A stretch of DNA of 35,793 nucleotides from a virus, in the IMG/VR virus record IMGVR_UViG_3300013132_001801, positions 1 to 35,793 of that record; one strand, given 5' to 3'. Positions 8,156 through 31,877 of the stretch are shown piece by piece (position 1 is the first letter of the stretch; the number at the start of each line of letters is the position of its first letter). The notes beneath the pieces were generated by a model, which had not been told where the DNA came from, did no database searches, and worked only from the letters and a program-made list of their open reading frames with translations. The position numbers were made by a program, and so were the translations under genes.

Positions 8156-8231
8156 TGGCGCTCTCGGAGGGATTCGAACCCCCATATAACCGCTTAGAAG
8201 GCGGTTGCCTTATCCATTAGACTACGAGAGC
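8156..8231 (-). tRNA. tRNA-Arg (TCT)
   Basis: Perfect acceptor GCTCTCG/CGAGAGC, discriminator G, CCA encoded. Anticodon stem ACCGC/GCGGT with loop CTTCTAA gives TCT. It is the first tRNA of the array, and its CCA touches the 5' end of tRNA-Leu. Confidence 0.94.
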
Positions 8232-13287: not shown

Positions 13288-13824
13288 TTAGCAGCGAACA
13301 ATATCGTCTTCGCTACAGATTTCCCCCATCTGAACTTCAATAGCGATCAAAGTTTCAGTCAGGTGAGTATTTGTGATCTTGTGAAGGGCTTGCTTTGGTA
13401 CGTGGAAAGATTCACCCTTCTTGATAGTAAAGATGTTACCATCAACGATGACCTTGCCTTCACCCTGCACAATCGTCCAATGTTCAGACCTGTGTACATG
13501 ATACTGCAAAGAGATGGCTTGGTCAGGTAAAATATGCAAACGCTTTACCTTGTAACCCTGATCAACATCAAGTACGTGCCATTCTCCCCACGGGCGAGTT
13601 GCACTTACATTTTTAATTGGTGCATCATACATTCCTGGAAACTCCTTATCTACTCTATCAAAATATGCTTCGCGTTCAGCACGTTCAGCATTTTTATTCA
13701 TCTCTAACATCCTGTGATACTCTGTGAAATCGCTTGTTAGACTTTCCTTGTATTCTCTACAACCAGGTTCACATTCTTTGTATAGTCCACAGGGACAACC
13801 GCCGCCATGATCATACTTTGCCAT
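13288..13824 (-). CDS. Mannose-6-phosphate isomerase-type cupin protein
   Basis: 178 aa from the ATG that overlaps the stop of the gene upstream (TAATG). Residues 1-30 are Cys- and Gly-rich (CPCGLYKECEPGC), possibly a small metal site. Residues about 70-175 form a cupin of the type II mannose-6-phosphate isomerase class: RPWGEWHVLD, YHVHRSEHWTIVQGEGKV and GESFHVPKQALHKI carry the metal-binding His and Glu. Such enzymes make mannose 6-phosphate for GDP-mannose. With the phosphomannomutase-like gene at 20835 and the epimerase at 28113 a GDP-mannose route is suggested. The guanylyltransferase domain is missing. Confidence 0.8.
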   Translation of the reverse strand: MAKYDHGGGCPCGLYKECEPGCREYKESLTSDFTEYHRMLEMNKNAERAEREAYFDRVDKEFPGMYDAPIKNVSATRPWGEWHVLDVDQGYKVKRLHILPDQAISLQYHVHRSEHWTIVQGEGKVIVDGNIFTIKKGESFHVPKQALHKITNTHLTETLIAIEVQMGEICSEDDIVRC

Positions 13825-14390
13825 TAAATCCACTCCAATCTTGGTTTACCATCATATCTCTTATCAAACACAAACCATGCGAAGGCTAACATTCCACCTC
13901 GTCCTTGAAGGGACGCAGCACCGCCACCGCTATTAAATCCAACTCTCTCACCGAACACATAAACACATTCTAACTTATTCTGTGAGAAAAGTCTATCTCT
14001 TCTTTCTTTCCCCTCAAGAAAAGATAGTTTGTTGAAGATGCAGACTTTCTTCTGGGCTAGATTGAGAGCATGTAGAGTAAATTTCGTTCCAATCTTGAAC
14101 GGAGGATTGGTAATGATATTTTGTGCTTCACGCCTCATGTTCATGAAGTTTAATCCACCATCACCATATCCTCTGTCAACAAGATCAGTCGCATAGATGT
14201 TCTTGTAACCATAATGTTCAAGCCGCTTGCAGATAGCACCATCACCACATGATGGCTCCCATATCTCACCTTCAAATGCTTCACGATATAACAAAGCATC
14301 AATAGCCCAATCAGGTGTCGCATAGAAGTCATCCTTCTCACGATTAGGATTACCTGATCCTACTAGTCTTGTGAACTGTTCTAGACTCAT
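13824..14390 (-). CDS. Adenine-type DNA methyltransferase-like protein
   Basis: 188 aa. YATPDWAIDALL, then WEPSCGDGAICKRLE (AdoMet-binding motif I) and IITNPPFKIG (catalytic NPPF motif IV) mark an amino-methyltransferase of the type that methylates adenine N6. A loop rich in Gly, FNSGGGAASLQGRGG, follows. No restriction partner is adjacent. Target specificity is unknown. It sits directly after gene 43 with an ATGA overlap, so it is made with the polymerase; protecting or marking new phage DNA is an inference. Confidence 0.8.
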   Translation of the reverse strand: MSLEQFTRLVGSGNPNREKDDFYATPDWAIDALLYREAFEGEIWEPSCGDGAICKRLEHYGYKNIYATDLVDRGYGDGGLNFMNMRREAQNIITNPPFKIGTKFTLHALNLAQKKVCIFNKLSFLEGKERRDRLFSQNKLECVYVFGERVGFNSGGGAASLQGRGGMLAFAWFVFDKRYDGKPRLEWI

Positions 14391-16945
14391 GCGAAGAAAC
14401 TTTCCAATGATGAAACTTTCTCAGTCTTCCAACCAATGCTATCAAGAATGATCTTCAGTGGTTCTACAAAAGACTTTTCAAACTGTGTATTATAGTCGAT
14501 ATACTTGTGCAAGTCAAACTCTTCCGGCATAGACTGCGGAAAAGCAATCACATTGGACTGGATTGTATTAGGCTCAGCCAGATAAATGAATTTGATCTTC
14601 TCGCCCTCTTTGATTGTCTGATGCTTCTTGTCTAGCTTCTTTGCTCGGATCAAATGATTGTACAGCAAAGAACCGCGAACATGGATCGGGCAACCTTTAC
14701 CAAACACATTTTCAGCATCTGAAAACTTCTCAAGTCCATTGACACCACGAGGAAAAGCAATATCGGAAATAGGTTGTTTTTTGAATTCGTTTTTCCAGAT
14801 TTCAATCATATCTATCAATTCGTTTTCAGACTTGTTCAAGACAACATCAATTGCTTCCCACATAATCTTGCGGCAATAGGCAGGAGTAGAACTCTTAATA
14901 ATTTCCAATCCCATAATTTTAACCTTTGGCTTCGCATACTCTACACCTTCATTGTTATAGACGTTTAGAATGTAACGCTTCTTGGCTGTCCAGATACCCT
15001 TGTCGGCCAAAGCTTCGCGCTTCATCACCATCTTTTGTTCGTAGGCATTGACATACTCAGCAAGTTCAGCATAAGCAGAGTCAATAAACGGTTGGATTTT
15101 AGTCTCACAGACCTTATCCATGAACTTGATGATTTCTCTTGTATCAGCATGTGGCTTCTGCTCAACAATAGTCTTGCTGACCAATCTATCAAGCGACAGA
15201 TAAATGCTATCCGTATCCGATGCAATAACATAGTCTTCGTTCTCCGTTCTGAGAAGTTTGTTTATATACTCATTTATCTTCTTCTCAATCCAGCGAATAG
15301 ACAATTGACCAGCAGTTGTGATACCAGATGCTTGCCTCACATCGAAGTATCGGAAGTATTGATTACCCAAAGCGCCGTAAGCTGAGTTCAGAGAGACCTT
15401 CTTCGCAAGTTGAAGATTATTATACCTTGCAATGCGTTTCTCAATATCATAGCGTTTTGCGGTGTCGGTTTCTTTTTCAAGTTCTTTCTTAGCTTCAATA
15501 GCCTTCTTCTTATACGCGGAGCGGTCATTATACATTGTCTCCATAATTTCAGGTAAGAACCCATGGCGTTCTTTTGTGAAGAACTGACCGTTGGGCGTCA
15601 GTGTGCAAGCAAGATCGGCAAGGCAAACAAGATTGACATCCATGTTAAGAAGAGAATCAACACTAATACGGCTGCTAAGTATTTTCCTGTGGTCATCTTT
15701 ATAGTCGCTCGGTTCAATGATTGTATCTGGCGAAATGTTATACTGCATAATCAAATGTGGATACAGGCTGTTCAAGTCAAAGCTTGCAACCCACTTGTGC
15801 ATTCCGAGAATAGGATCTTTGACGAATGCACCTTCGTAGGCCGAATCTTTCTCATGTCGAATGACTGGATCCACAACCATGTTTTTCTTACGAAGATGGT
15901 TATAAACAATAGAATCCCACATACGCACTTGTGAGAATGCATCATCAGCATTAGTCTTACTGTCGTATGCAAGCGTAAGAGTTAATTCGATGAGTTTCAA
16001 CTTGTCATCAATACGTTCGACAAGTTCAACGTCTTTGATGTTATACTCAATAAACTTTTGATAGTTGTCTTTGTAAAGATTATGCAGATTGCCGTACTCC
16101 TCATACGACAATTTCTTTTCGCCAATTTCAACATTAGCGATAGCATCAAGTTTATATGATTCCTGTGATTGACCACCAGGAGCAAACTTACGATACATTG
16201 TGATGTAGTCAAGAGTGGCAATACCAAGAAGCTTGTAGATTGTTTCTTCTTTGCCGACCTTATTGGTTGTCTTACCACCATTGATAACATTCCATGGTGA
16301 AAGCCTCTTAGATGCTTCTTCACCGAGAACCTTACGAATGCGATTGACAAGATAAACGATATCAAATCTTTCTACATTCCAGCCAGTGATGATATCAGGA
16401 TAATCTGCGGCCCATTCATCTATGAACCGCTTGATCAAATCAATCTCATTACGACACTGAATATATCGAACATCACTGCGAGTATTGTTGAATACTCCGC
16501 AACCCAAGACGATGAATTTGCCTTGATTGTTCTTGAAGGTGATGGCTGTGATAGGTTCGTTTGCTTGATCTTGTTCAGGAAAACCATTCTCAGAACCGAC
16601 CTCAATATCTATGTTTGTCACATTGATATGGGCTAAATCCCATTCTACATCATCAGCAAAATGGTCTGCAATGAATGCATACTCATACTTTTGATTGCCG
16701 TAGATATTTAAGTTTTCTACGTCTTTGTATTGTTCTACAAAATCTCTTGCATCGCGGATGTTGCCTGGCTTGATTTCAGCCATTGCTTCACCTGAAACGG
16801 AAGAAAACCCTGTATGAACTTTTGAGGGAACATACAGGGTTGGATAATAGTCAATCTTTCGTCTGACTTTTCTTCCGTCTTCTACACCGCGATACAGGAT
16901 ACGAGAACCATAGACCTGAACATTAGTGTAAAAAGATTTCATCAT
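14387..16945 (-). CDS. 43: DNA polymerase gp43 (family B)
   Basis: 852 aa, close to T4 gp43 length. The 3'-5' exonuclease part shows NIDIEVGSE (Exo I), GWNVERFDIVYL (Exo II) and YNIKDVELVERI (Exo III). The polymerase part shows FDLNSLYPHLI (motif A), KKVSLNSAYGALGN (motif B) and VIASDTDSIYL (motif C, catalytic Asp pair). The C-terminus ends in a hydrophobic SSLESFFA tail that fits clamp binding to gp45. ATG is available at 16945 and 16942, overlapping the stop of the LSm-like gene. No intron or endonuclease interrupts it. Confidence 0.98.
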   Translation of the reverse strand: MMKSFYTNVQVYGSRILYRGVEDGRKVRRKIDYYPTLYVPSKVHTGFSSVSGEAMAEIKPGNIRDARDFVEQYKDVENLNIYGNQKYEYAFIADHFADDVEWDLAHINVTNIDIEVGSENGFPEQDQANEPITAITFKNNQGKFIVLGCGVFNNTRSDVRYIQCRNEIDLIKRFIDEWAADYPDIITGWNVERFDIVYLVNRIRKVLGEEASKRLSPWNVINGGKTTNKVGKEETIYKLLGIATLDYITMYRKFAPGGQSQESYKLDAIANVEIGEKKLSYEEYGNLHNLYKDNYQKFIEYNIKDVELVERIDDKLKLIELTLTLAYDSKTNADDAFSQVRMWDSIVYNHLRKKNMVVDPVIRHEKDSAYEGAFVKDPILGMHKWVASFDLNSLYPHLIMQYNISPDTIIEPSDYKDDHRKILSSRISVDSLLNMDVNLVCLADLACTLTPNGQFFTKERHGFLPEIMETMYNDRSAYKKKAIEAKKELEKETDTAKRYDIEKRIARYNNLQLAKKVSLNSAYGALGNQYFRYFDVRQASGITTAGQLSIRWIEKKINEYINKLLRTENEDYVIASDTDSIYLSLDRLVSKTIVEQKPHADTREIIKFMDKVCETKIQPFIDSAYAELAEYVNAYEQKMVMKREALADKGIWTAKKRYILNVYNNEGVEYAKPKVKIMGLEIIKSSTPAYCRKIMWEAIDVVLNKSENELIDMIEIWKNEFKKQPISDIAFPRGVNGLEKFSDAENVFGKGCPIHVRGSLLYNHLIRAKKLDKKHQTIKEGEKIKFIYLAEPNTIQSNVIAFPQSMPEEFDLHKYIDYNTQFEKSFVEPLKIILDSIGWKTEKVSSLESFFA

Positions 16946-18272: not shown

Positions 18273-18965
18273 TCAGGCCCACAGTGCTTGGTAATACTTA
18301 CCGAAGAGCGTGAAGCCAAGCCGCTTACGATCATTAAATGCCTTGTGCTTTTCAGCATTGAACTTGCCCATCTCCATTCTAAATTCTTTGCTGACTATAC
18401 TATCACCTTCTTCAATGATTTCACCTGGTTCGTAAGGATCATAGTAGTGCTTATAGTCGCCTTCCTCGTTTACTTCCTGTTCAAAACTCCAGATCATCTG
18501 GTCAAGAACCCAATCAAACTGTGAATGAAACTTTGTACTCGCTGCTTCAAGTTCTTCGTCGGTAGCATTCAGTTCTTTGTTCCAATAACCTTCGTTGAAG
18601 ACCTTATCTTCACGTTCAGTCAGACGGAGTTCTTCAGGAAGATCCTCTTGATCAACATAGGGGCTGCCATGCTTGGTAGCCTTCAGTTGCTTGAGCATAG
18701 GAAGAACAATGTGTGCAAGAGTATGATCCATAGACCAAGTGTCTTCACGATCAATGCGTACCTCAATCTTGCGCTTACGATACTTCACAAGATGGTTGAT
18801 TGAGTGATCGTAAATCCACTGAATAGTGTCTTCAAGCTTTTCAAGGAACTTCTCAAACTTTGTACTATTCTCCTTCCATGCAAAACCATACTTTTTAACC
18901 ATGTACTTATAATGTATATCACATGACCAGTGATTGTCAGGATAACCGCCGATGTATACTTTCAC
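18273..18965 (-). CDS. Conserved phage protein of unknown function, 230 aa
   Basis: Contains DTWSMDHTLAHIVLPMLKQL then KHGSP, and later FDWVLDQMIWSFEQE, ending LGFTLFGKYYQALW. These blocks recur in proteins of this size across T4-like phages, usually called hypothetical. Many conserved Trp, His, Asp and Glu residues hint at an enzyme or a metal site, but no catalytic family can be named. Its ATG overlaps the stop of the glycosyltransferase (ATGA). Confidence 0.8.
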   Translation of the reverse strand: MKVYIGGYPDNHWSCDIHYKYMVKKYGFAWKENSTKFEKFLEKLEDTIQWIYDHSINHLVKYRKRKIEVRIDREDTWSMDHTLAHIVLPMLKQLKATKHGSPYVDQEDLPEELRLTEREDKVFNEGYWNKELNATDEELEAASTKFHSQFDWVLDQMIWSFEQEVNEEGDYKHYYDPYEPGEIIEEGDSIVSKEFRMEMGKFNAEKHKAFNDRKRLGFTLFGKYYQALWA

Positions 18966-19966
18966 TTATCTCTCTCCAAATTGTTCACAAATGTCTTGTA
19001 TGATTCTTCCCAAGACCAACTATCTCTTGCTATTATACTACACTTTTTTCTTGATAAAGTCAAGCACTTTTCAATAGCTACTTCAAGATTATCATCCGTA
19101 AATCCTGTATACTTGTTGTCCACAACATCCATCGGACCTTGTACGGGATATGCAGCAACAGGTGTTCCACAAAACATCGACTCAATCATTACCACGCCGA
19201 ATGTATCTGCCTTGCTCGTAAACACAAAACAATCAGAAGTCTGATAAAACTGCGCTAACTCTTCACCAAACTTATATCCTACAAACTTTACATTTGGATA
19301 TTTCTGTTGTAATTCTAGTTTGTATGGACCATCTCCAACAACAACTTTTATGTACTTATCGGGTAGTTGGCAAAAAGCATCTAGATTTTTTTCTTTTGAC
19401 ACTCTACCCACTGAAAGTAGAATAGGTACTTGATTCTTTATCTTAGTATGTCTTGGTGTGAAAATTGTATCATCAACACCTCTGGACCAAACAATCTGTC
19501 TGCGACCAATGTCATTTTCAATCAGATACTCAGCAGCAGTCTGAGTTGGACAATATACTTTTCTTTTGCGATGAAACCAACGAAGATATTCTCTTGTCAT
19601 CCACTGTGGAATACCAACAACATCTTTTAACAGTTTAGACCAGTCAGTATGAAATGATGTTGTGTATCTTTGATTTCTTAGAGTTAAAATAAACCCTGCT
19701 GCTAGTCCTAACGGTCCTTCCGTTGAGATATGATAAACTGTTCCTTCTTGATGTCGGAGCATCTTACACAATCCAAAAGGTATTGCAAAAGGAATTTCAG
19801 GATATGCTTTGAATCGAAGTTTTCTCTTAAATAACTCAGGGTGTATAACATCAACGATATATCCATCTTTTTTAGCTAGTTCAACCATCTTCTTTAGAGT
19901 TGTCACAACACCACTTACTTGTGGTTCCCATGCATCAGTGATTATGACTATTCGTTTGAAGTCCAA
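18962..19966 (-). CDS. agt: Agt-type lipid glycosyltransferase (GT4)
   Basis: 334 aa, GT-B fold. The acceptor-side domain starts ITDAWEPQVSGVVTTLK and has STEGPLGLAA and TTSFHTDW. The donor-side domain has WSRGVDDTIFTPR, LLSVGRVSKEKNLDAF, VVVGDGP and ADTFGVVMIES, where GT4 enzymes place the donor-binding Glu. The pattern matches Agt of alphaproteobacteria, which adds sugars to diacylglycerol to make glycolipids when phosphate is scarce. The family also includes sulfolipid and mannolipid transferases, so the sugar is uncertain. It overlaps plcP by 19 bases, the same pairing as in bacterial plcP-agt operons. Confidence 0.82.
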   Translation of the reverse strand: MDFKRIVIITDAWEPQVSGVVTTLKKMVELAKKDGYIVDVIHPELFKRKLRFKAYPEIPFAIPFGLCKMLRHQEGTVYHISTEGPLGLAAGFILTLRNQRYTTSFHTDWSKLLKDVVGIPQWMTREYLRWFHRKRKVYCPTQTAAEYLIENDIGRRQIVWSRGVDDTIFTPRHTKIKNQVPILLSVGRVSKEKNLDAFCQLPDKYIKVVVGDGPYKLELQQKYPNVKFVGYKFGEELAQFYQTSDCFVFTSKADTFGVVMIESMFCGTPVAAYPVQGPMDVVDNKYTGFTDDNLEVAIEKCLTLSRKKCSIIARDSWSWEESYKTFVNNLERDK

Positions 19967-20703
19967 TGTACTATCTCCCAGGTTCTATCTGTGTTTTCTA
20001 CAAGTGCAGTACAACTTTCCACCCAATCTCCGGAGTTCATATATTCAACTCCATTGATTTGCTTGATCACAGCAGTATGTATGTGACCGCAGATAACACC
20101 ATCATAACCTTGAGATTTGCAATAGTCTGCTAATGTGTTTTCAAAATCAAAGATAAAATTGACTGCACCTTTGACATTTGCTTTGAGATATGCTGAAAGA
20201 CTCCAATAACCAAAACCAAACATATGTCGAAGTTTGTTATAGAATCTGTTTACTTTTAGTAGCAGAGCATAAACATTATCACCAAGATAACTCAACCACT
20301 TTGCCATCTTGTGTACACCATCAAACAAATCACCGTGTACGACAAGATATCTTTTGCCATCTAGTCCGACATAATCATGAGTGTCTTTTATTTGAATTGA
20401 TTCAATATCAAGTGAAACGTCTAACCAATCACGAAGGAACTCATCATGGTTGCCTGTGAGATAGACAACTTTAGAGCCATGACGCTGTTTATTGATTATC
20501 TGGCGAATGACAAGTGAATGTGATTGTGGCCAGAAGATGCGCTTTCTTAACTTCCATCCATCAATAATATCACCAACAAGAAATAGATTGTCACAAGAAT
20601 GATTTTTAAGGAAAGAGTTAACTCCATCTGCCTGCGATCCTTCGCTTCCTAAATGGATGTCCGATATAAAGATGGAGTTATAGTGTTTGATCTTTTTCTT
20701 CAT
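19948..20703 (-). CDS. plcP: PlcP-type phospholipase C (metallophosphoesterase)
   Basis: 251 aa. All metallophosphoesterase motifs are present: FISDIHLGS, LVGDIIDGW, YLTGNHDEFLRD, VVHGDLFD and VICGHIHTAV. The stretches WPQSHSLVIRQI, YWSLSAYLK and NSGDWVESCTALVE match PlcP of rhizobia and marine alphaproteobacteria (the COG2908, LpxH-related group). PlcP cleaves phosphatidylethanolamine, phosphatidylcholine or phosphatidylglycerol to diacylglycerol under phosphate starvation, releasing phosphate. LpxH-type lipid A chemistry is the main alternative, but the adjoining Agt makes PlcP far more likely. The length is near that of bacterial PlcP and no key residue is missing. Confidence 0.85.
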   Translation of the reverse strand: MKKKIKHYNSIFISDIHLGSEGSQADGVNSFLKNHSCDNLFLVGDIIDGWKLRKRIFWPQSHSLVIRQIINKQRHGSKVVYLTGNHDEFLRDWLDVSLDIESIQIKDTHDYVGLDGKRYLVVHGDLFDGVHKMAKWLSYLGDNVYALLLKVNRFYNKLRHMFGFGYWSLSAYLKANVKGAVNFIFDFENTLADYCKSQGYDGVICGHIHTAVIKQINGVEYMNSGDWVESCTALVENTDRTWEIVHWTSNE

Positions 20704-20851
20704 GTAAGACTTTCTCGGCTGCTTCTTTCAGAGTATTTAGAAGCCCAAGTCTAGCAAAGTTTACAAGAGTATCATAGTCCATGGTTACAGTGATATCAGC
20801 AGAGCCATCTTCGTTCTCTACGATATCATTCACTTCAAAATGAGTTTCCAT
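20678..20851 (-). CDS. Small acidic conserved protein, 57 aa
   Basis: METHFEVNDIVENEDGSADI, then TMDYDTLVNFARLGLLNTLK and a charged helix. It has GAGGACAAAAT before the ATG, overlaps the phosphomannomutase-like gene by 17 bases and plcP by 26. Similar small proteins with a DGSA...D...L...G pattern occur in T4-like phages. Function unknown. Confidence 0.65.
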   Translation of the reverse strand: METHFEVNDIVENEDGSADITVTMDYDTLVNFARLGLLNTLKEAAEKVLHEEKDQTL

Positions 20852-21527
20852 ATTTTGTCCTCAGTATGTATTCTGTTTCAGGCCAATTTTTAACATGGTG
20901 TACTATATCAGATACTCTTGCAAGAGTATAGTCGTTACCACCAAGCTCACATCTGTCACCAAAGAAAACAACAGTACCGCTCATATCTCTTCTCACTTGA
21001 GCCTTGTTTCGCCCTTTGACAAACAAGTCGATACCAGTTTCACCACCAATGACTGCTTCAAGTCTTGTAAACTGTCGATTCAGTCTACGGCAAATCTGTT
21101 CTCTCTCACCAGTTGCTTCATCCCAAATCTTATACTGTTCACGTTCCGCTTTTGTAGCATTGCGTCCAACAATAGAAAAGTTGACAGCACCGATACGCTT
21201 TTCAATATGATTGCCAGTACGAACAGAAAAGCCAGAAAGTTTTTGCTCTTCATCTAAGACTCCAATCTCATCATGTGTCAGTTCAAAATCAAATGATGAT
21301 ACGAGTTCTCCCTTAACGTATTTGGCATTACCTGAACAGTTATATACTGCTTTAGCAGCATGGCAAATCTCTTCACCCAACTGTTCAAGTGTCTTTACAT
21401 AGTCTGAACCAGTGACAAGGTAGACGGAGGTCTCTAGGCAGAACGAAAGGAAAAAACTTTCAAATCTAGAGTCTATCTTGCCACGGGAAGGCGTTAATGT
21501 GCCATCAACGTCAAAGACGAAGTTCAT
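20835..21527 (-). CDS. Phosphomannomutase-like HAD phosphatase
   Basis: 230 aa. FVFDVDGTLTPSR carries the HAD catalytic Asp pair at residues 6 and 8. LVTGSD gives motif II. RIGAVNFSIVGRNA matches the sugar-binding block of eukaryote-type phosphomannomutase, and GGETGIDLFVKGRNKAQV plus FFGDRCELGGND provide the Lys and acidic motifs. The family converts mannose 6-phosphate to mannose 1-phosphate; the activity of phage forms is unproven. It would sit between the isomerase-type cupin (13288) and the GDP-mannose epimerase (28113). It overlaps the next gene upstream by 4 bases. Confidence 0.78.
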   Translation of the reverse strand: MNFVFDVDGTLTPSRGKIDSRFESFFLSFCLETSVYLVTGSDYVKTLEQLGEEICHAAKAVYNCSGNAKYVKGELVSSFDFELTHDEIGVLDEEQKLSGFSVRTGNHIEKRIGAVNFSIVGRNATKAEREQYKIWDEATGEREQICRRLNRQFTRLEAVIGGETGIDLFVKGRNKAQVRRDMSGTVVFFGDRCELGGNDYTLARVSDIVHHVKNWPETEYILRTKYGNSF

Positions 21528-21788: not shown

Positions 21789-21863
21789 TGGAGCGGGTAG
21801 CCGGATTCGAACCGGTCCTCATCAGCTTGGAAGGCTGAGGCACCACCCATATACCATACCCGC
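21789..21863 (-). tRNA. tRNA-Gly (TCC)
   Basis: Perfect acceptor GCGGGTA/TACCCGC, discriminator T, CCA encoded. Anticodon stem TCAGC/GCTGA with loop CTTCCAA gives TCC. T arm CCGG/CCGG with loop TTCGAAT. It lies alone among protein genes, 13.5 kb from the main array, and complements tRNA-Gly(GCC). Confidence 0.94.
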
Positions 21864-22203: not shown

Positions 22204-22395
22204 CTATACTTCTTCTTTTCCGTCTTTTCTTGCCTTACCACGCGCCCGCGAGTCTCTGGCAATTTCTTTTTTTCTTTCTGTATTGGCATAGAACCACTCT
22301 TCAATCTCTTGTGCGGTTCTGTTGCATCCTTTACAGTATCTTCCTGTTTCTTCATATTCGCATACCTTTACACAAATAGAATTATTCATCTTCAT
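22204..22395 (-). CDS. DUF1289-like small Cys protein, 63 aa
   Basis: VCEYEETGRYCKGCNRTAQE followed by IEEWFYANTERK matches the DUF1289 pattern C...C.GC.RT..EI..W, with three or four Cys that would bind zinc or iron. DUF1289 proteins are common in proteobacteria and have no assigned role. Its reading frame is preferred over an overlapping frame (22170-22355) because of this match. It overlaps the next gene upstream by 14 bases. Confidence 0.75.
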   Translation of the reverse strand: MKMNNSICVKVCEYEETGRYCKGCNRTAQEIEEWFYANTERKKEIARDSRARGKARKDGKEEV

Positions 22396-23185
22396 AAAAA
22401 ATTCGATTTAAAGTTTTATCTGCTGGCCCATAACCATATTTATCTTTAGGAGAAAACGCATTATATATTTTAGCTGTTTCAGAATAACAAGGCCATTGTT
22501 CATCTCTGAATCTATCAGATGCAGACTTTAACCAAGGATCATTGGTCTTTTGTTTCAATTCATACCACCAATCAAGTGTAGAAGGATCTGGCAAAGTCTT
22601 TATGTATCTAGACTTTGCCCACCAATAATTTCCACTAAAATGTCTTGAAGGTGTCTCAGAATAATTTACACCTGCAATATCATAATCTCCGAGCTTAACT
22701 CTACCATAACATTGATTCCAATTTTCAATAACACCCCAGTTTAAAAATTGTCTCCAATAATAATACTTCTTAAAAGTTTCAGCATCACCGATTTCTAGAT
22801 GCTTCTTTGTGGACGTTATTCCTTTAGAATGTAGATATAAAATGATCATATCTTTTTCTTGAGAATCATTCCATATTTTTCTCATAGTATGGTTCTCAGT
22901 AATCGTTTTTGATGAATCAATTGTGTTTAACATATCTTCATCGGTAGCGTATGGACTTAAAACAAACTCTATTGATTTCTTACAACCAATATCATAAGTA
23001 CCTTGTAGATGGACAAAAGAGTTCATTTTCTGTTTGTCGTTGTTTGTTACAACTGTAAACTCAATACCATCTAAAATTTCTAGTATTCTATTATCTTCCA
23101 TCATTTTCATATGTTCTAGAAACATAGATGACCATGTTCCATAATCATCCGTGAGATATAGATGGTAGTATAAAATATTTTGCAT
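22382..23185 (-). CDS. Putative glycosyltransferase-related protein, 267 aa
   Basis: Blocks such as LYLHSKGIT, a tryptophan-rich WRQFLNWGVIENW, DYD-IAGVNY, HFSGNYWWAKSRYIKTLPDP and DEQWPCYSE recur in phage and bacterial proteins of surface-glycan loci. The HFSGN.WWA block is the most typical. The enzyme class is not certain. It opens with MQNILYYHLYL and its ATG overlaps the C-methyltransferase stop. Confidence 0.65.
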   Translation of the reverse strand: MQNILYYHLYLTDDYGTWSSMFLEHMKMMEDNRILEILDGIEFTVVTNNDKQKMNSFVHLQGTYDIGCKKSIEFVLSPYATDEDMLNTIDSSKTITENHTMRKIWNDSQEKDMIILYLHSKGITSTKKHLEIGDAETFKKYYYWRQFLNWGVIENWNQCYGRVKLGDYDIAGVNYSETPSRHFSGNYWWAKSRYIKTLPDPSTLDWWYELKQKTNDPWLKSASDRFRDEQWPCYSETAKIYNAFSPKDKYGYGPADKTLNRIFYEDE

Positions 23186-24399
23186 TATGTAGACATTTCA
23201 GTATATACATAAGGAAAATATCTAACGAATGCGTCTCTCTTGTTCGGACGCATCTTCTCAATTTTAGCCTTAATTTCTTCAAAAAAGTTCCATGCAAGAG
23301 GCACGAAAACAACATTGTCATCCTCTGCAAACTCTTTAAGCCTCTTAGAAGAGAAAATAGGAATATGTGTGCCAGGTGTATACAGTCCTTGCTTTAGTGG
23401 ATTATCATCAATGATGAAATCAAGCTTCACATTTGAAGCATTCAACAGAGTATTACCCTTTGCTGGTGCACCATAACCAATCACAGTCTTACCTGCGTTC
23501 TTATGTTCGCTTATCTCTATATCAAAATCCTCTATGATATCTTTACACTCAATAGCATAAAGCTCGTATGTTCTCTCATTGTAAAGTTCAAGCGACTCTT
23601 CATTCTTCATGAGAAGATCGACGTAAGAAGGCCGAGAATTAGACTTTGAGATTACAAAGATATAGCTGGTGCCGTGAATTGGATGCTTTAAAACTTCAAC
23701 CAGATTCAATCCAGCTCTCTTACACAATTCATTCATAGAACGAATATTGTAGAAAGAAAGATGCTCATGATAGATAGTATCAAACTCAGAATTTAGGATC
23801 ATATCAGCCTGAGATGTTGTGATGTAGATATGTCCCTCTTGATGAACAACTTTCTTCATACTCTTAAGAAATTCTAGCTGATCATAATTATGAGCAAATG
23901 CATTCTGGCAGATAACAGCAGCAAATTCATTGGGTCCAAATTGAGTACTATCAAAATAACCACAGTACACTACATGGTTCTTCGAACTCTTCTCATATAG
24001 ATTTTCCGCAGGATCAACACCAAATGTGTGCGCGCCGTATGCCTTGAAAGCATCTAGTTGAGACCCGTCATTACATCCTATGTCTAATACTTTGACAGAA
24101 CGAAAATCACCACACTTTTCATACACAAACTTAGCGAACCAATCAAAGTATTCTAACTGTGTCTTGGCTGTACCTGAAACATACAAATAGTTCTTGAACA
24201 GCAAATCAGGATTGACCTTGTGTGTCAACTGCACATGAAAGCAATCTCTGCAATATACAGTGGCTAACTGAAATTTATCTTCTGATTCTTCTGTATCCTT
24301 GAGAAACGAATTTGCAAGAGGTTGCATTCCAAGATCAAGCAAAGGCATAAGTTCTTGGCCATCACATGCAATGCATCTATCAATCACTTCACAATTCAT
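23185..24399 (-). CDS. NDP-sugar C-methyltransferase
   Basis: 404 aa in three parts. An N-terminal zinc-binding region has CIACDG and YCRDCFHVQLTH (four Cys). A central AdoMet domain has VLDIGCNDGSQLDAFK near residue 100. The C-terminal domain has GYGAPAKGNTLLN and FIIDDNPLKQG. The layout matches the TylCIII/NovU family, which adds a methyl group to carbon 3 of 4-keto-6-deoxy NDP-sugars. The substrate could come from the dehydratase-like gene at 25471. It overlaps the methyltransferase upstream by 4 bases. Confidence 0.85.
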   Translation of the reverse strand: MNCEVIDRCIACDGQELMPLLDLGMQPLANSFLKDTEESEDKFQLATVYCRDCFHVQLTHKVNPDLLFKNYLYVSGTAKTQLEYFDWFAKFVYEKCGDFRSVKVLDIGCNDGSQLDAFKAYGAHTFGVDPAENLYEKSSKNHVVYCGYFDSTQFGPNEFAAVICQNAFAHNYDQLEFLKSMKKVVHQEGHIYITTSQADMILNSEFDTIYHEHLSFYNIRSMNELCKRAGLNLVEVLKHPIHGTSYIFVISKSNSRPSYVDLLMKNEESLELYNERTYELYAIECKDIIEDFDIEISEHKNAGKTVIGYGAPAKGNTLLNASNVKLDFIIDDNPLKQGLYTPGTHIPIFSSKRLKEFAEDDNVVFVPLAWNFFEEIKAKIEKMRPNKRDAFVRYFPYVYTEMST

Positions 24400-25049
24400 T
24401 TTACTGCTCTTTCCATTTTTCTTTTGCCAAACTTTTCGAATACAACTATACTATCATAAAAGAAAACGCCAGACAACCCACCATTAGCAATTTTATTTTT
24501 CATTTCTAAATCGCTTGTCGTTTCTTCTTTCCAGTCATAGTGCAGTACATCTACGTATGATTTGGCATACTCTATAAAAGAATATTTACGATTCAATCCA
24601 CCACCATTGAAGGACATGTAGCTAGTATGGCAATCTTCACAAATGTAAATTCCTCCAACGGAAAGAAAAGGAAAAACTCTTTCAAATGTTAGAATCTGCT
24701 GATCCATAAGATGGCCACCATCATCTATTAACACATCTATATTTTTGTTTTGTAAAAACTTATCCCAGAAATCTGGTTTTCCTTGATCGCCTATGACAAC
24801 TTCAATGTTCTCATTATCATATTTGAGGTGAGCGCATTCAGGATCAACATCAATGCCAATTATTTTAGAACCGGACCCAAAATAATTACCCCACATTTCT
24901 AGTGAGCCGCCTTTTTGAACTCCAACTTCAACAATATTAATATCAGTGCCCAAAAACCTTTTTAGATGTCTTTCGTAGATTTCAAAATAAGGTCTCCACT
25001 TATCAGATGAACGCTCTAATTTATTATGAATTTCTTCTAGCATATTCAT
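24396..25049 (-). CDS. Class I AdoMet methyltransferase, 217 aa
   Basis: IVEVGVQKGGSLEMWGNYFG is the AdoMet motif I. IIGIDVDP gives the acidic end of strand 2, and VLIDDGGHLMDQQIL the later Asp/His site. This resembles sugar O-methyltransferases of the macrocin/CmcI type, whose His and Asp bind a metal. The target is probably a sugar on the glycan made by this locus. Opens MNMLEEIHNKLERSS; GAGG lies 5 bases upstream. Confidence 0.75.
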   Translation of the reverse strand: MNMLEEIHNKLERSSDKWRPYFEIYERHLKRFLGTDINIVEVGVQKGGSLEMWGNYFGSGSKIIGIDVDPECAHLKYDNENIEVVIGDQGKPDFWDKFLQNKNIDVLIDDGGHLMDQQILTFERVFPFLSVGGIYICEDCHTSYMSFNGGGLNRKYSFIEYAKSYVDVLHYDWKEETTSDLEMKNKIANGGLSGVFFYDSIVVFEKFGKRKMERAVK

Positions 25050-25061
25050 GATACCTCCACT

Positions 25062-25469
25062 CTATCCTTTTTTCTTTTTTAAGACTTTTTTATCTAAATC
25101 AATCAATTTAGCGGTAATTGTTTTCTTGTTTAATATTCTATGGATTAGAAGTCTATGATGACCATCCATCACTAGATACTTTTGTTTGTATTTTATGACA
25201 TGTATTGGTTCATGATCATCAATTTTCCACAACATATCTTCAACTGAATAGAAACATTCCCTATGTGTCTTTATGAGTTTATCTGTTTTCAGTTTTACTT
25301 TCTTTGCTGAAAGAAAACGATCTATCACTCTACCTTTAGTTCTTTTCATTAAAAGATCATAGGCCTCGTCACCAAGTTTATGATCTGAGCTTTTCGTTTC
25401 TCTCTCTTCGTCAACGTAAAATTTGACTATTCTTCTAAATATTTTTAAATATTTTTTAGACTTTGACAT
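25062..25469 (-). CDS. ParB/sulfiredoxin-fold small protein, 135 aa
   Basis: The segment HVIKYKQKYLVMDGHHRLLI has the DGHHR motif of the ParB N-terminal/sulfiredoxin fold, which binds nucleotides. The N-terminus is highly basic (KSKKYLKIFRRIVKFY). Its place inside a sugar locus recalls ParB-like kinases or carbohydrate modifiers, but no activity can be assigned. It directly follows the dehydratase-like gene. Confidence 0.65.
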   Translation of the reverse strand: MSKSKKYLKIFRRIVKFYVDEERETKSSDHKLGDEAYDLLMKRTKGRVIDRFLSAKKVKLKTDKLIKTHRECFYSVEDMLWKIDDHEPIHVIKYKQKYLVMDGHHRLLIHRILNKKTITAKLIDLDKKVLKKKKG

Positions 25470-25470
25470 A

Positions 25471-26511
25471 TCAAAGTTCTATCCACTCCTTATTCGTTAA
25501 TGACCAGTCAACAACTTCTTTGATTCTTTCTTGTAGAGTCAACCTTGGTTCCCATCCAAGAGAACGCATATAGTCACCATCAAGAGCATATCTCAAATCA
25601 TGGCCAGGTCTAGATGAGTGAAAGTCAATTAACTCACAGACTGGTTCTTTACCGACAGCCTTAGCAATATGTTTTACCAACTCAAGATTATTGATTTCTT
25701 CTTTACCGACAACATTGAACTTTGGACATTTTGCTCCACCCCAATCAGGCTCATATACCTTCTTCAACTGGTCTTCACTGAGATGAAGCAAGAAATACAT
25801 TGCTTCAGCAACGTCTTTACCGTGAATGTAGAAACGTGAACCAGGAATAGTCTTAGTATGATCCGAGTGAATGAAAATCTTTTCACCATCACGAATCTTA
25901 CGAATACACATAGGGATAAATTTCTCTGGATGCTGACGTTCACCAAAGACATTCATTGTATGTGTAATGAAGATCGGCAACTTGTAAGTATTCTCATATG
26001 CAACGCAGAACTCTTCAGCAGCAGCCTTAGACGCGGAGTAGGGATTGGTAGAGTTATAACGATCACGTTCCTTGTAGGAAACACCATTCGGTGCGATACC
26101 AAAAATCTCGTCAGTAGAGAAATAGATGAAACGCTCAAGGTTCTTTTGAGTGCGGGCATAATTAAGCATATGCACAGTACCGATAGTATTGTCCATAACA
26201 AACTCCATCGGATGAGAGATAGAGCGGTCAACGTGTGATGATGCGGCTAGATGCAGAATAATATCTACATCACCAATAAGATTACGATTGATTTCTGCAA
26301 TTTCAGCCTTTAGATCGTGCCAAACAATCTTGACACGTTTACGAACTTCTGGCGGATACTGTCTTACGACATTATCAAGACGATTGAGATTGCCTGAATA
26401 ATCAAGTCTGTCTAAAGAAATAATTTCCCAATCTGTCTTTTCTAGAAACAGATTAATAATGTGATGGCCAATAAAACCGGCGCCGCCTGTAATCAATACT
26501 CTCTTTGTCAT
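25471..26511 (-). CDS. dTDP-glucose 4,6-dehydratase-like SDR
   Basis: 346 aa. LITGGAGFIGHHI is the NAD-binding motif, FSTDEIFG holds the Thr-Asp-Glu acid/base triad typical of RmlB, and NPYSASKAAAEEF the catalytic Tyr and Lys. ITHTMNVFGERQHPEKFIP is also RmlB-like. The family makes NDP-4-keto-6-deoxy sugars, the substrate class of the C-methyltransferase encoded two genes downstream. UDP-glucuronate-type relatives are possible. Start ATG abuts the next gene by one base. Confidence 0.85.
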   Translation of the reverse strand: MTKRVLITGGAGFIGHHIINLFLEKTDWEIISLDRLDYSGNLNRLDNVVRQYPPEVRKRVKIVWHDLKAEIAEINRNLIGDVDIILHLAASSHVDRSISHPMEFVMDNTIGTVHMLNYARTQKNLERFIYFSTDEIFGIAPNGVSYKERDRYNSTNPYSASKAAAEEFCVAYENTYKLPIFITHTMNVFGERQHPEKFIPMCIRKIRDGEKIFIHSDHTKTIPGSRFYIHGKDVAEAMYFLLHLSEDQLKKVYEPDWGGAKCPKFNVVGKEEINNLELVKHIAKAVGKEPVCELIDFHSSRPGHDLRYALDGDYMRSLGWEPRLTLQERIKEVVDWSLTNKEWIEL

Positions 26512-27245
26512 TATGAACCTTTCTTCAATCCCGCATAAGTCATTTGCTGGTCTTTATATGTATAATCTACGTTAAACTTCTCTTTCATGTACTTAGGAAA
26601 AAACTCTTTCATTAAGTAATCCATATCTCTAAAGGCATCAGTCTTATCATACCAGCTTTCTGTTCTCATATGCTTAACAGTTGTTTCGTGGACAACATGT
26701 GCTGTGCATTGTAGCAGATAACATAGTACTTTGTCAATGCCCCATTCAGAAACTTTATACTCATAGTCATTCAAGAAGTCCAAGAACTTTCTGAATATAT
26801 CATTACGAAAGAAAGGAACACCAGTCTCAATGAAATTCGTTTCTGTAAATACAAACTCCGGCTTATGTTTCAAACAGTCATAAAAGTTATATGAAATAGC
26901 TGCTTGCTGAAACAAACGAAAGTCCCACTTTCTAGCCAATTCAAGTGCAGTATTGACCGATTGAATATCTGTAGCATAATCATCATCCCACGTTCCAATA
27001 TAATCATAATCTTCCCACTTGATCATCTTACAGATTTCAGGAATAAGTTTAAACTTTAATCCTTTCTGGCGAATAACCATATCATATGTATTAGGTTCTG
27101 GTTCAAAATCATCTTTGTATGCAACTACACACACATCATATGTACGTTCCGGTTTACAGAAACGCCAATGATTTTGTTTATCATATTCGTCTGAGAAAAA
27201 TAGATTAGTTGCTGTTGGAGTTATAATTAAAGCGCGCCGCTTCAT
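26511..27245 (-). CDS. Putative glycosyltransferase, 244 aa
   Basis: Contains YDYIGTWDDDYATDIQSVN, where WDDD resembles the metal-binding acidic motif of GT-A enzymes, and FVFTETNFIETGVPFFRNDI further on. Some DUF707-like bacterial glycosyltransferases share this layout. It overlaps the fucosyltransferase-like gene by 41 bases; a later start is possible but none has a better ribosome site. Confidence 0.55.
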   Translation of the reverse strand: MKRRALIITPTATNLFFSDEYDKQNHWRFCKPERTYDVCVVAYKDDFEPEPNTYDMVIRQKGLKFKLIPEICKMIKWEDYDYIGTWDDDYATDIQSVNTALELARKWDFRLFQQAAISYNFYDCLKHKPEFVFTETNFIETGVPFFRNDIFRKFLDFLNDYEYKVSEWGIDKVLCYLLQCTAHVVHETTVKHMRTESWYDKTDAFRDMDYLMKEFFPKYMKEKFNVDYTYKDQQMTYAGLKKGS

Positions 27246-28137
27246 TCAATTCACCTTTATATACATTCTTTTTAAACCAATTACAAAAACGCTCCATGTC
27301 CATATACTTATTATATGGTTCTTTCCAATTATTGAAAAGAGGTTCTAGATACATTGCTTCATATAATTCTGGCTTCTGATCTAATTCAAGAATAGCATCA
27401 AAGAATGTATCATCATCTTGGTAGTCATGCCAATTCAAAAAAGATTTTGGATTGAAGTCACATTCAATCGTGGTGCTTCCCCAATATATAGGCACAGTAC
27501 CGCCCATATAAGCTTCGTATAGTTTTTCAGTTGCATAACCCGGATAACTTGAGTTCTCAAAGCAAAGATTAAACTTGTAGTCTTTTAGAAAGTTCATCTT
27601 AGCTGATACCGAATTCTCACCTCGCTCAAGAATATAACCAACGTTATTAAACAACGGGCCTGCACTATCAACTTTCTTATAGTCATTAAGACGCTGAAAG
27701 AAATAGTTACGCTTCTCACAGGCACCATTTTTTACCACAAATGAGCAAAACTTATCATTAAACTTTTTTGTTAGTTCTTCACCTTCACGGCTAACTGTTT
27801 TTGAATTAACAACGTTTCTGTGTTGGTTATCGTAATCATAAATGACATACAACGGAAGACGATAGTGTCTATCATCATCTATATGATCAAATGAAATTGC
27901 ATAGTGGCAAGCATAATTACTTGGTCTTTCATTCTCACCAGTGTAGAATATTTTAACACATCTTTTGCTGTTATACTGAATGTTATTGTTACCAAAATTT
28001 CTATCACCAAAAATGAGATAGTCTGGATTCACATCATCACGAACTATCTCAAAATCTTCAGATAGAATGTTGGCAAAAAAGTTTGAAATCGCTCCAAACG
28101 TATCAGTAAATCCTAATCTAAGGACTGGTTTTCCCAT
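27205..28137 (-). CDS. GT10 alpha-fucosyltransferase-like protein
   Basis: 310 aa. The signature FENSSYPGYATEKLYEAYMG followed by GTVPIYWGS (about residues 195-225) is the GDP-fucose-binding block of GT10 alpha-1,3-fucosyltransferases. YACHYAISFDH and FCSFVVKN earlier also fit. These enzymes move L-fucose from GDP-fucose. L-fucose is 6-deoxy-L-galactose, so GDP-L-galactose from the epimerase next door is a plausible donor. The ATG overlaps the epimerase stop region by 25 bases. Confidence 0.85.
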   Translation of the reverse strand: MGKPVLRLGFTDTFGAISNFFANILSEDFEIVRDDVNPDYLIFGDRNFGNNNIQYNSKRCVKIFYTGENERPSNYACHYAISFDHIDDDRHYRLPLYVIYDYDNQHRNVVNSKTVSREGEELTKKFNDKFCSFVVKNGACEKRNYFFQRLNDYKKVDSAGPLFNNVGYILERGENSVSAKMNFLKDYKFNLCFENSSYPGYATEKLYEAYMGGTVPIYWGSTTIECDFNPKSFLNWHDYQDDDTFFDAILELDQKPELYEAMYLEPLFNNWKEPYNKYMDMERFCNWFKKNVYKGELNEAARFNYNSNSN

Positions 28138-29168
28138 AGTGTATACACCTCTTTTTCAATCCAGTTATATGTCTGAGTAATTCCATCTTTAAGAGAATAT
28201 TTTGGTTTCCACCCAAGTTTTTCTTCAATCAGCTTATTATGTGAGGTGCGACCACGAACACCAAGTGGGCCAGGAATATGAACAATCTCTAACTTCTTAT
28301 TACGAACACTCATCGCATGTTCTACCAATTTGTTGATTGTTACCATTTCTTCTGAACCAATATTTACAGGGCCCATAAAATCGGACTGCATAAGCAACCG
28401 AACAGCATCAATACAGTCATCAATATATAGAAACGATCTGGTTTGTTCTCCATCGCCCCAAACTTCTACATACTGGCTTTCAGTTATAACTTTACGACAA
28501 ATAGCCGCAGGCGCTTTTTCTTTACCGCCTTTCCATGTGCCAAGAGGACCATAGATGTTGTGAAACCTGGCAATGCGAACTGGTATACCATAGTTGCGAT
28601 TGTATGCGAGGTATAATCTTTCACTAAACAACTTTTCCCATCCATATTCAGAATCAGGATTGGCTGGATATGCTGTCGATTCTTCGCAATTAGGTTTATT
28701 TGGATCTAATTGATTATGTTCTGGATACATACATGCGGAAGAAGAGTAGAAAATCTTAGTTTGATTGCACTTATGATACTTATTATATTCACACACAGAA
28801 TCAAGCACGTTTAGGTTAATTGTTGATGAGTTGTGCATTACATCTGCATCATGCTCACCTGTAAAGATATAACCTGCGCCGCCCATATCGGCTGCAAACT
28901 GATAAATCTCATCAAATGGTTTATCAAACTGCATTGCAAAAATTTGATAAGGATCACGATTACAACCAGCATAACTTATTAGTTGTAGCATATCTGCTTG
29001 ATCACGTAAATCACGAATAACAAAATGATCTGCTTTGCTAATACAGAATTCAGGTTGTTTTAAATCTACGCCGCGCACCCAATATCCTTCGTCCTTAAGA
29101 CGATTGACCATTTGGTTACCAATAAAACCACCGGCGCCAAGAACAAGTGCGGTCTTCTTAGTCATCAT
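28113..29168 (-). CDS. GDP-mannose 3,5-epimerase-like SDR
   Basis: 351 aa. LVLGAGGFIGNQM binds NAD. FAADMGGAGYIFT, FYSSSACMYPE, EYGWEKLFSERLY (catalytic Tyr and Lys), FHNIYGPLGTWKGGKEKAPA and HIPGPLGVRGR follow the plant GDP-mannose 3,5-epimerase pattern block by block. That enzyme turns GDP-D-mannose into GDP-L-galactose and GDP-L-gulose. This is a strong family match and unusual in a phage. It overlaps the genes on both sides (11 and 25 bases), so the three are one translational unit. Confidence 0.87.
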   Translation of the reverse strand: MMTKKTALVLGAGGFIGNQMVNRLKDEGYWVRGVDLKQPEFCISKADHFVIRDLRDQADMLQLISYAGCNRDPYQIFAMQFDKPFDEIYQFAADMGGAGYIFTGEHDADVMHNSSTINLNVLDSVCEYNKYHKCNQTKIFYSSSACMYPEHNQLDPNKPNCEESTAYPANPDSEYGWEKLFSERLYLAYNRNYGIPVRIARFHNIYGPLGTWKGGKEKAPAAICRKVITESQYVEVWGDGEQTRSFLYIDDCIDAVRLLMQSDFMGPVNIGSEEMVTINKLVEHAMSVRNKKLEIVHIPGPLGVRGRTSHNKLIEEKLGWKPKYSLKDGITQTYNWIEKEVYTLWENQSLD

Positions 29169-30057
29169 ATTTCTCCATAATTTCTTTTGACCACTTTAAG
29201 GTTCTATCATACTGATGAACTATACAATACTTATTATCATTTTGGTCTAAAACAAGACCTTCATTGAACTTAGGTTGAATGTCATCATATAACATTTGAT
29301 AGTTTATGTGTTTTGAAAGATCAGAACCATATATTATACCAAGGTCACCTTTACCTGATTTCACAGCCTCTAAAGTTGTTCCGAGTTGAATGGCCCAACC
29401 ACTCTTGTTATCTGTGAATAGAATATTACTCTTGAACGGTTCTTGTTGAATCAAGAAATTGAAAACAGCTTGATCTACAATAGGAATTGGTCTGTTGATA
29501 GATAATTGAAAAATTAACAACATCAAGTCTGTAACTTCTTTGGCAAATCCAGCTATTGTTCCAACATTGTAAATAGTATTATCTTTTAGTCTGTTGTGAA
29601 AATATGGGCCAAAAGTTTCTCTAAGATTGTTATTTCCCCAAGGTTCATCTCTATACTTCAGACCTTCGGAAGAAACAACCAATCTTTTTCCTAGTGATAA
29701 CTTCTCATCTAGCCAGTAAACAGGATTAGACTGAAAAACAATGTCCCTAGTATCTATGGCTATGACATACTCATAATCATTCTGTAGTTCATTTAATGTG
29801 TTCCAAATATAGAAGAAACGTTCAACATGCGGCATCCCATTAGATTGTACCTTATAAGAACCATCAGGTTGTTCTTGTCCATATAAAGAAAGTTTAATAT
29901 TCTCTTTAACTAATTTTTCAATTGTTTCTTTCGTGATGTTAGTAGCAACGAGACAAATATCACCGTCAAATCCAGTTTTCTTAATAGAGTTGATCAAATA
30001 CTTTAGTTCATTCCAACCGTAATTTGATGCTCCTCCTATAATTAGACTTTTAGCCAT
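29158..30057 (-). CDS. Putative glycosyltransferase, 299 aa
   Basis: YVIAIDTRDIVFQSNP contains a DTRD motif that may act as the GT-A metal site. NNNLRETFGPYF and IVDQAVFNFLI follow, the latter like the DQ..FN motif of glycosyltransferases that process a whole glycan end. The N-terminus SLIIGGASNYGWNELKYLIN starts a Rossmann-like unit. No family name is secure. It overlaps the GT2 gene by 16 bases. Confidence 0.6.
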   Translation of the reverse strand: MAKSLIIGGASNYGWNELKYLINSIKKTGFDGDICLVATNITKETIEKLVKENIKLSLYGQEQPDGSYKVQSNGMPHVERFFYIWNTLNELQNDYEYVIAIDTRDIVFQSNPVYWLDEKLSLGKRLVVSSEGLKYRDEPWGNNNLRETFGPYFHNRLKDNTIYNVGTIAGFAKEVTDLMLLIFQLSINRPIPIVDQAVFNFLIQQEPFKSNILFTDNKSGWAIQLGTTLEAVKSGKGDLGIIYGSDLSKHINYQMLYDDIQPKFNEGLVLDQNDNKYCIVHQYDRTLKWSKEIMEKYDD

Positions 30058-30788
30058 GGTAATTCTCCATTATAATGTTTCGTTTGTTCTTCGTTACCCC
30101 TGATGAAGAAGTCAGCATTCACTGAACCTGGATTACCATCAAGACGATAACATAGAGTGTGCTTGCGGTTTGTATCCCACTTAGCTTGCTGCATCACCGA
30201 ATAGAGATACCGCCTATCACCACCCCAACCAGAATGCCAGAGATGGCATGTTTTCTGTAAGAACTCTCGTTCAAAAGCAAATGAAGAAGTGTCTACGAGA
30301 TATTGTGGATCTTTATGTGAAAAGTAGATTGGCCACTTACCGAGTGCTTCACAGTTATCATCACAAATATAGCTTTTATCGGGATTGTAAATCTTGCGAA
30401 GAGAATAAGCAAAGTCATTGCCGCGATCAAGAACTTCAACGAGAGACCTCACATGGTCTGGATCATACCAATTATCTTCATCAAGGAAGAAGATGTAGTC
30501 TGCATTGATAAGATGTGGAATGCCAGCATATATACGATGACCATAGAAACCTTTTGCGCCTGTATTATAAGGTAATATCATAACTCTAATTTTATCTACA
30601 TAATCCGGATTCATATACTCAGCCCAGACCGAAGATGCTTTATCTGCAAATTCATCACCATCAACAACAATGAGGTGTGTAAGATTTCTGTAAGTTTGTT
30701 TTAGGACCGACTCGATAGTATCTCTGAGTTTATCAGAACCGATAGTAGGAGTGATTACGACAACAGATTTTTCAATGATTAATTTCAT
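30042..30788 (-). CDS. GT2-family glycosyltransferase
   Basis: 248 aa from the ATG at 30786-30788, which lies after the transcription start expected from the promoter at 30820-30848. A longer reading would begin inside that promoter. VVITPTIGSDKLRDTIESVL and LIVVDGDE form the nucleotide-sugar fold, and IFFLDEDNWYDPDHV carries the metal-binding DED. NADFFIRGN near the end also fits. First gene of the carbohydrate operon. Donor and acceptor sugars are unknown. Confidence 0.8.
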   Translation of the reverse strand: MKLIIEKSVVVITPTIGSDKLRDTIESVLKQTYRNLTHLIVVDGDEFADKASSVWAEYMNPDYVDKIRVMILPYNTGAKGFYGHRIYAGIPHLINADYIFFLDEDNWYDPDHVRSLVEVLDRGNDFAYSLRKIYNPDKSYICDDNCEALGKWPIYFSHKDPQYLVDTSSFAFEREFLQKTCHLWHSGWGGDRRYLYSVMQQAKWDTNRKHTLCYRLDGNPGSVNADFFIRGNEEQTKHYNGELPWLKV

Positions 30789-30802
30789 AGTATACCTATA
30801 AT

Positions 30803-30852: not shown

Positions 30853-31821
30853 TTAGTTGAGAGATATTAGACCCTTATCAGTCAAATAACCTTCTTCACC
30901 AAGAGCATCTTCGCTCTGATATTCTTCCATAAACTCTTTCAGATTAGGAATCACATCAAAATGTTCTTGCTTGAAGTATACAAACAATGGGCGAGAGATA
31001 GGATAATCACCAGCTTTGATTGCATCTTGCTCAGGTACAACACCATTAACAGTTGCTCCCTTGATTACACTTACGTTCTCTTCCAAGAACGAGTAACCAA
31101 AGATACCAAGAGCATTAGGGTTACCTTGAATCTTCTGAACGATTAGAGTATCATTTTCACCCGCTTCAATAAATGCACCATCTTCACGTATTGACTTACA
31201 GTACATCTTTTCATCATCAGCAGACATCTTAATACCTGCGTCTTTAGCTGCCTTCTTACATTCTTTTTCAAGCACCAACTCTACAAATGAGTCGCGCGTA
31301 CCTGAGGTAGGCGGAGGCCCAAGAACTTCAATCTTACCAGCAGAAAGTGATGCATCTACATCGCTCCAATTGATAGACTTATTCTCTACAAACTTACCAT
31401 CAACAATAACCCACTTTGCTAAAGCACGGTAGATAATGTCTGTGGTTAGTTCCATAGACTCATGTTCTTTAGACATGGCAAGGACAATGGCGTCAATACC
31501 AATCTTAACTTCAACAGGAGTAACTCCGTTCTTGGCGCAAGTTTCCTTTTCGGAATCCTTGATTGCTCTGGATGCATTTACAGCATCAGGGTGTTCATCG
31601 CCTGCACCAGCGCAGAACAACTTGATACCACCACCAGTACCAGTTGATTCAACGATTGGTGTTGGTACACCAGCCTTCTTACCAAACTGTTCTGCTACAG
31701 TGGTTGTAAATGGATAGACAGTAGATGAGCCAACGATACGAATTTGATCACGGGCCGCATATGCTGTGCTTGTTCCAAATGCTAACAATGCAGCAGCCAA
31801 AATAATCATCTTATTCTTCAT
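30853..31821 (-). CDS. pstS: Phosphate-binding protein PstS
   Basis: 322 aa from the ATG at 31819-31821, set by GGAGAAG just upstream. Residues 1-22 are a signal peptide ending AYA, so the protein is periplasmic. RIVGSSTVYPFTTTVAEQFG, ESTGTGGGIKLFCAGAGDEH and GPPTSGTRDSFVELVLE form the phosphate-binding loops of the PstS family. Phage PstS is well known in marine T4-like phages and may raise phosphate uptake during infection. No clear Pho box was found upstream. The pst transporter genes are absent, so it would work with the host transporter. Confidence 0.93.
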   Translation of the reverse strand: MKNKMIILAAALLAFGTSTAYAARDQIRIVGSSTVYPFTTTVAEQFGKKAGVPTPIVESTGTGGGIKLFCAGAGDEHPDAVNASRAIKDSEKETCAKNGVTPVEVKIGIDAIVLAMSKEHESMELTTDIIYRALAKWVIVDGKFVENKSINWSDVDASLSAGKIEVLGPPPTSGTRDSFVELVLEKECKKAAKDAGIKMSADDEKMYCKSIREDGAFIEAGENDTLIVQKIQGNPNALGIFGYSFLEENVSVIKGATVNGVVPEQDAIKAGDYPISRPLFVYFKQEHFDVIPNLKEFMEEYQSEDALGEEGYLTDKGLISLN

Positions 31822-31877
31822 ACACTTCTCCATAAAAAATTCTAGGTAGAACAATTTCTGCCCAGAACAATAGCGTT

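Follow-up and report, generated by a model that had tools for sequence, protein, structure and literature searches.

On the minus strand of the window, the 35.8-kb virus record analysed here over its whole length (a metagenomic contig without a complete genome), lie two overlapping open reading frames, both of them intact. The first, plcP (19948..20703), opens with ATG and encodes a calcineurin-like metallophosphoesterase of 251 aa assigned to the PlcP (intracellular phospholipase C) family, and the second, agt (18962..19966), opens with TTG and encodes a GT4 glycosyltransferase of 334 aa assigned to the Agt/GTcp diacylglycerol-glycosylating clade. The 19-base overlap reported by the first-pass annotation is present (19948..19966, minus strand), and the gene order, likened there to that of the bacterial pair, matches PA3219-PA3218 of P. 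aeruginosa. A GGGAG ribosome-binding-like site for agt (19975..19979, minus strand) stands 8 bases ahead of the TTG, within the plcP codons for W-E-I. Overlap and site are kept in all 12 of the closest contigs (12/12) and in a second, distant clade, and the overlap, a GGAG or GGAA element and a TTG, ATG or GTG start reappear in relatives as far as ~51%/43% identity; translational coupling of plcP and agt is likely. A third gene, for a 230-aa protein of unknown function (phrog_11543; 18273..18965, minus strand), overlaps agt by 4 bases and is retained in most close relatives.

The surroundings of the pair are those of a phage. T4-type genes for gp43, UvsX, a gp41-like helicase, gp44, gp62, RegA and dUTPase are present, and the source phage is T4-like, large and tailed. 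The T4-type DNA polymerase gene gp43 (14387..16945, minus strand) has plcP-agt directly upstream, an arrangement found in two clades, that of the window and that of L221-L261, while directly upstream of plcP lies a gene for a phosphomannomutase/HAD-IIB protein (20835..21527, minus strand) that adjoins plcP also in L002, L006 and L012. The window further holds 26 tRNA genes, one at 21789-21863 and the other 25 crowded within its first 8 kb (77-8231), where they are interspersed with small open reading frames and GIY-YIG homing endonucleases. A surface-sugar cassette with two epimerases/dehydratases, a fucosyltransferase-like GT10 (FucT), a GT2 and methyltransferases extends over 22382-31854 at a GC content of 35-37%, below that of the rest of the window; genes for an HSP20-like chaperone (32036-32545) and a mannose-6-phosphate isomerase-type cupin (13288-13833) were also noted. 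Pointers to the host conflict, as gp43 is closest to cyanophages (50%), yet psbA is absent from 12/12 related contigs tested; the capsid of one relative is closest to phages of Methylophilales, Stenotrophomonas and Pelagibacter. A scan for sigma-70-type promoters gave no enrichment over shuffles, and the late-promoter-like matches to TATAAATA all fall outside the plcP-agt pair.

The assignment of the phosphoesterase to PlcP draws on several comparisons. Its Pfam match is Metallophos, and the complete set of metallophosphoesterase motifs read by the first-pass annotation was borne out by an alignment of 56 sequences, in which the eight metal ligands D15, H17, D45, N85, H86, H123, H207 and H209 are invariant. 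Identity reaches 52% over 231 aa with P. aeruginosa PlcP and 42% with the S. meliloti PlcP whose gene lies beside AHL synthase and LuxR genes, a protein that we take to be SMc00171. Against E. coli LpxH the pairwise score is merely 31 bits, and the LpxH equivalog model is not passed (35.3 bits vs a cut-off of 134). In four bacterial genomes holding true LpxH, the same model gives the true LpxH 231-330 bits and the PlcP-type genes 38-57, so that the window protein behaves as bacterial PlcP-type genes do, its score lying at their level and not at that of true LpxH. Furthermore, a tree of 171 sequences splits LpxH from PlcP with an SH-aLRT of 100 and nests the window protein among the PlcPs; the grouping with LpxH by which the PlcP reading would have been refuted is thus not found, and identity with LpxH was rejected on model score, pairwise score and tree together. 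The two share the metallophosphoesterase fold and a lipid-type substrate, but form separate clades, with GNRD in LpxH and GNHDE in PlcP. The predicted structure (pLDDT 81) is closest to LpxH crystal structures at ~20% identity; a PDB sequence search with the window protein gave no match, and LpxH is the nearest solved fold because PDB searches turned up no PlcP. The product of 19948-20703 is, as judged from its sequence, a member of the PlcP family, and its phospholipase C activity is inferred. Within the same tree it falls in a virus-only clade (support 99), and weak resolution of the deeper order among viral and bacterial PlcPs leaves the number of plcP transfers unsettled.

The glycosyltransferase is 37% identical over 327 aa to P. 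aeruginosa Agt1, encoded by the gene after PlcP in the same locus. The claim that this GT4 is an Agt is upheld by a 147-row tree, in which a plcP-linked Agt clade that includes the window protein stands apart from other GT4 enzymes (support 99). Within that tree the window falls in a viral clade (support 100), and the bacteria that come closest to this clade are Alphaproteobacteria with small genomes, a placement to which base composition may contribute. Mutagenesis of the SAR11 GTcp has identified G16, G82, G85, H104, R163, R190, K195, D256, T257, F258, G259, E264 and W320 as essential (PMC8231724). Counterparts of all are present in the window (G19, G84, G87, H106, R162, R188, K193, D254, T255, F256, G257, E262 and W319, respectively), covering the catalytic His-Asp pair, the donor site and the DAG site. 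These positions were mapped through an aligned relative and not through GTcp itself; as the GTcp sequence was not in the alignment, R162 and W319 were assigned by motif position, with a shift of one. D254 is the Agt-type residue, in place of which most other GT4s sampled carry E. The predicted structure (pLDDT 93) is GT4-like, and its best-named fold matches are general GT4 enzymes. The window glycosyltransferase belongs to the Agt clade, from which diacylglycerol (DAG) glycosylation is inferred.

Strong purifying selection acts on plcP and agt alike, with dN/dS against close relatives of 0.04-0.07 for plcP and 0.07-0.15 for agt; chance open reading frames were rejected on these values (0.04-0.15). 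In addition, at least 291 stretches in IMG/VR are related to the window PlcP. Among the best 80 of these loci, a GT4 gene lies downstream in 63, a GT2 gene takes its place in 14 and neither is found in 3; the 63 GT4 genes include 56 within 130 bases of plcP and 28 that overlap it. Viewed from the Agt side, plcP lies upstream in 43/53 further viral Agt contigs. The pair occurs in more than 100 other virus contigs, of lengths up to 369 kb, and is widespread. Viral-hallmark genes on the contigs tested comprise a gp43-type polymerase (21/50), the gp23 capsid (6/28) and terminase (10/28); a search of the long non-T4 contigs for the tail-sheath family was negative, for which reason these were judged viral through terminase or PHROG matches. 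Genes for ribonucleotide reductase (RNR) adjoin the pair in 25-36 loci. The GT2 found directly downstream of viral plcP instead of Agt is of ~235 aa (L025, L040, L042, L043, L044, L046 and L049; further loci L062, L066, L072, L075, L076, L077 and L079), and its position suggests a substitute lipid glycosyltransferase. One contig, L220, joins a window-like Agt (71%) to a different PlcP (52%) with a 25-base overlap, a mix that, on sequence comparison, appears to reflect exchange or recombination among the forms of the pair that phages carry.

Linkage to phosphate acquisition is seen at several levels. The window encodes a PstS-like phosphate-binding protein (30853..31854, minus strand; PF12849) with a signal peptide-like N-terminus, ~10 kb away from plcP and 46% identical to the PstS-like product of the gene next to plcP in phage Mosig. 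Among the long viral contigs, 8/28 have a PstS-like gene, which in most cases adjoins plcP, and seven viral loci carry the order phoX-pstS-plcP-agt (L027, L029, L032, L034, L035, L039 and L068, e.g. L068:2193-7910); the L068 stretch also holds a phage-type DNA polymerase and a homing endonuclease. A Pho-box-like element, [CT]TGT[AC]ATAATTCTGTAAT, stands 69-77 bases ahead of phoX in 7/7 phoX-bearing loci, which are not independent trials because their sequences are related, and four other viral loci have similar elements directly before pstS. An TATGCTAATAT-like element was also observed upstream of phoX in the phoX-bearing loci. PhoB control of phage genes has been published, and the same cyanophage paper regards Pho-box prediction in phages as unreliable without binding data (PMC10976474). 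At the window's own pair and at its PstS-like gene no Pho box is recognisable, so that the criterion for a PhoB-regulated operon is not fulfilled there. Altogether, the viral phoX-pstS-plcP-agt operons and their predicted Pho-box-like elements support a phosphate link, in the absence of binding data.

In phosphate-starved bacteria, PlcP and Agt strip phosphate from membrane lipids and put sugar lipids in their place, and we consider it probable, with a good deal of confidence, that the window pair is a phage counterpart of this lipid-remodelling module and serves phosphorus supply, although activity, substrates, timing and benefit are all inferred. The infecting phage would make PlcP, which would cleave host phospholipids (PG and PE) at the membrane surface into diacylglycerol and phosphorylated headgroups (glycerol phosphate and phosphoethanolamine). 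Agt would then glycosylate the diacylglycerol with UDP-glucose or UDP-glucuronate to MGDG- or GADG-type glycolipids, and the membrane would remain an intact bilayer while lipid phosphorus is freed. The proposal that phosphate is released from host membranes holds in so far as the phoX/pstS operons and the Pho-box-like elements tie the pair to phosphate, but not in its literal form: PlcP yields phosphorylated headgroups and not free phosphate, so that a further phosphatase is required before lipid phosphorus could feed phage DNA synthesis. This step may be supplied by a host enzyme or, in some phages, perhaps by PhoX, although the latter has a Tat-like signal and would act outside the cytoplasm. 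The position of the pair near gp43, and in other phages beside RNR genes or within phoX-pstS-plcP-agt operons that have a Pho-box-like promoter, makes a supply of phosphorus when phosphate is limiting the likeliest benefit. It is probable that, in phosphate-poor conditions, these phages remodel the membranes of their hosts, the lipid change itself being inferred. The broader proposition, that in many unrelated large phages the host PhoB triggers a programme of PhoX, PstS, PlcP and Agt or GT2 that turns phospholipid into glycolipid and treats host lipids as a phosphorus store, is one on which we are evenly divided.

The main rival explanation accepts the lipid remodelling as proposed and places the benefit in the changed membrane itself, by way of superinfection exclusion, lysis timing or resistance to predators or antimicrobial peptides. 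The presence of a large surface-sugar cassette in the same window lends it some weight, as do two papers that connect lipid remodelling with phage attachment and with grazing (PMC9938194, PMC9457565); the linkage to pstS, phoX, Pho-box-like elements and gp43 or RNR genes points instead to phosphorus and DNA supply, and we regard a membrane-property benefit as improbable, though worth keeping in mind. Far less plausible is the combination of a glycosyltransferase acting on LPS, capsule or phage DNA or protein, an LpxH-like lipid A phosphoesterase and an accidental adjacency. Public annotation does name the phosphoesterase UDP-2,3-diacylglucosamine diphosphatase, the nearest solved fold is LpxH, the best-named glycosyltransferase folds are general GT4, and the nearby sugar cassette (FucT, epimerases, methyltransferases) leaves room for a surface-glycan role. 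Against this stand the fully supported tree split, an LpxH score far under the cut-off, the position of the glycosyltransferase among the Agts, its residues D254, R162 and W319, and the conservation of plcP-agt adjacency across many viral lineages, while LpxH is merely the nearest fold available where PDB searches return no PlcP. That plcP-agt is host sequence brought in by misassembly or chimerism of the contig, conceivable for an incomplete metagenomic genome of 35.8 kb, is a negligible prospect, given T4-type replication genes on both flanks, the same arrangement in independent 110-167 kb contigs with gp43 (two also with gp23, terminase and tail sheath) and viral copies that are 85-91% identical where no bacterial copy exceeds ~54% in the sets searched; host contamination was rejected on the flanking phage genes and the long relatives.

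Read as a phage-borne supply of lipid phosphorus, the pair can be set beside two known systems. With the bacterial modules (P. aeruginosa PA3219-PA3218; SAR11 HTCC7211 PB7211_983 and PB7211_960) it shares families, order, adjacency or overlap and catalytic residues, but it differs in being phage-encoded, beside replication genes and in virus-only clades, with a 19-base overlap and no Pho box seen. The P. aeruginosa PA3219/PA3218 (PlcP/Agt1) pair makes glycolipids (PMC8528852). With the phosphorus genes of cyanophages (pstS, phoA and phoH, under host PhoBR control) it has phage-borne phosphate acquisition in common, and some plcP-agt phages resemble these in carrying pstS and phoX with Pho-box-like promoters; in contrast, phosphorus would be drawn from the membrane lipids of the host itself, a source for which no description in phages was encountered, and psbA was not found in any of the 12 contigs tested. 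Phosphate-uptake genes in phages are already known. The combination of these known enzymes with known phage phosphorus genes appears to be new in phages. The remark in the first-pass annotation that no characterised viral example was known stands in that a literature search, with subscription papers and preprints outside its scope, found no viral PlcP or Agt paper, but the pair is not a single case.

If the reading is correct, the host membrane would be a new phosphorus source feeding viral DNA synthesis, of which a 167-kb genome contains ~335,000 phosphorus atoms, and glycolipids in phosphate-poor water may partly mark infected cells; if the PhoB programme also holds, infection in low-phosphate water would ordinarily include a virus-driven lipid change. 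Among named phages, Pelagibacter phage Mosig EXVC030M, a cultured pelagiphage, has a PlcP homologue (QOI69083.1, 50.8%) beside a PstS-like gene, and Synechococcus phage S-SRM01 has a more distant one (QPX48289.1, 33.6%); both proteins bear the LpxH annotation, and no Agt was found in either phage at E 1e-5. Because Mosig, a cultured SAR11 phage, carries PlcP, albeit misnamed, the idea is testable. Sequence records routinely name PlcP UDP-2,3-diacylglucosamine diphosphatase (LpxH), among them the phage records MT647606.1 and MW015081.1 as well as plasmid and genome records, a label that conceals the PlcP group in databases. A copy of the plcP-agt1 locus was also observed on P. aeruginosa plasmids (L085).
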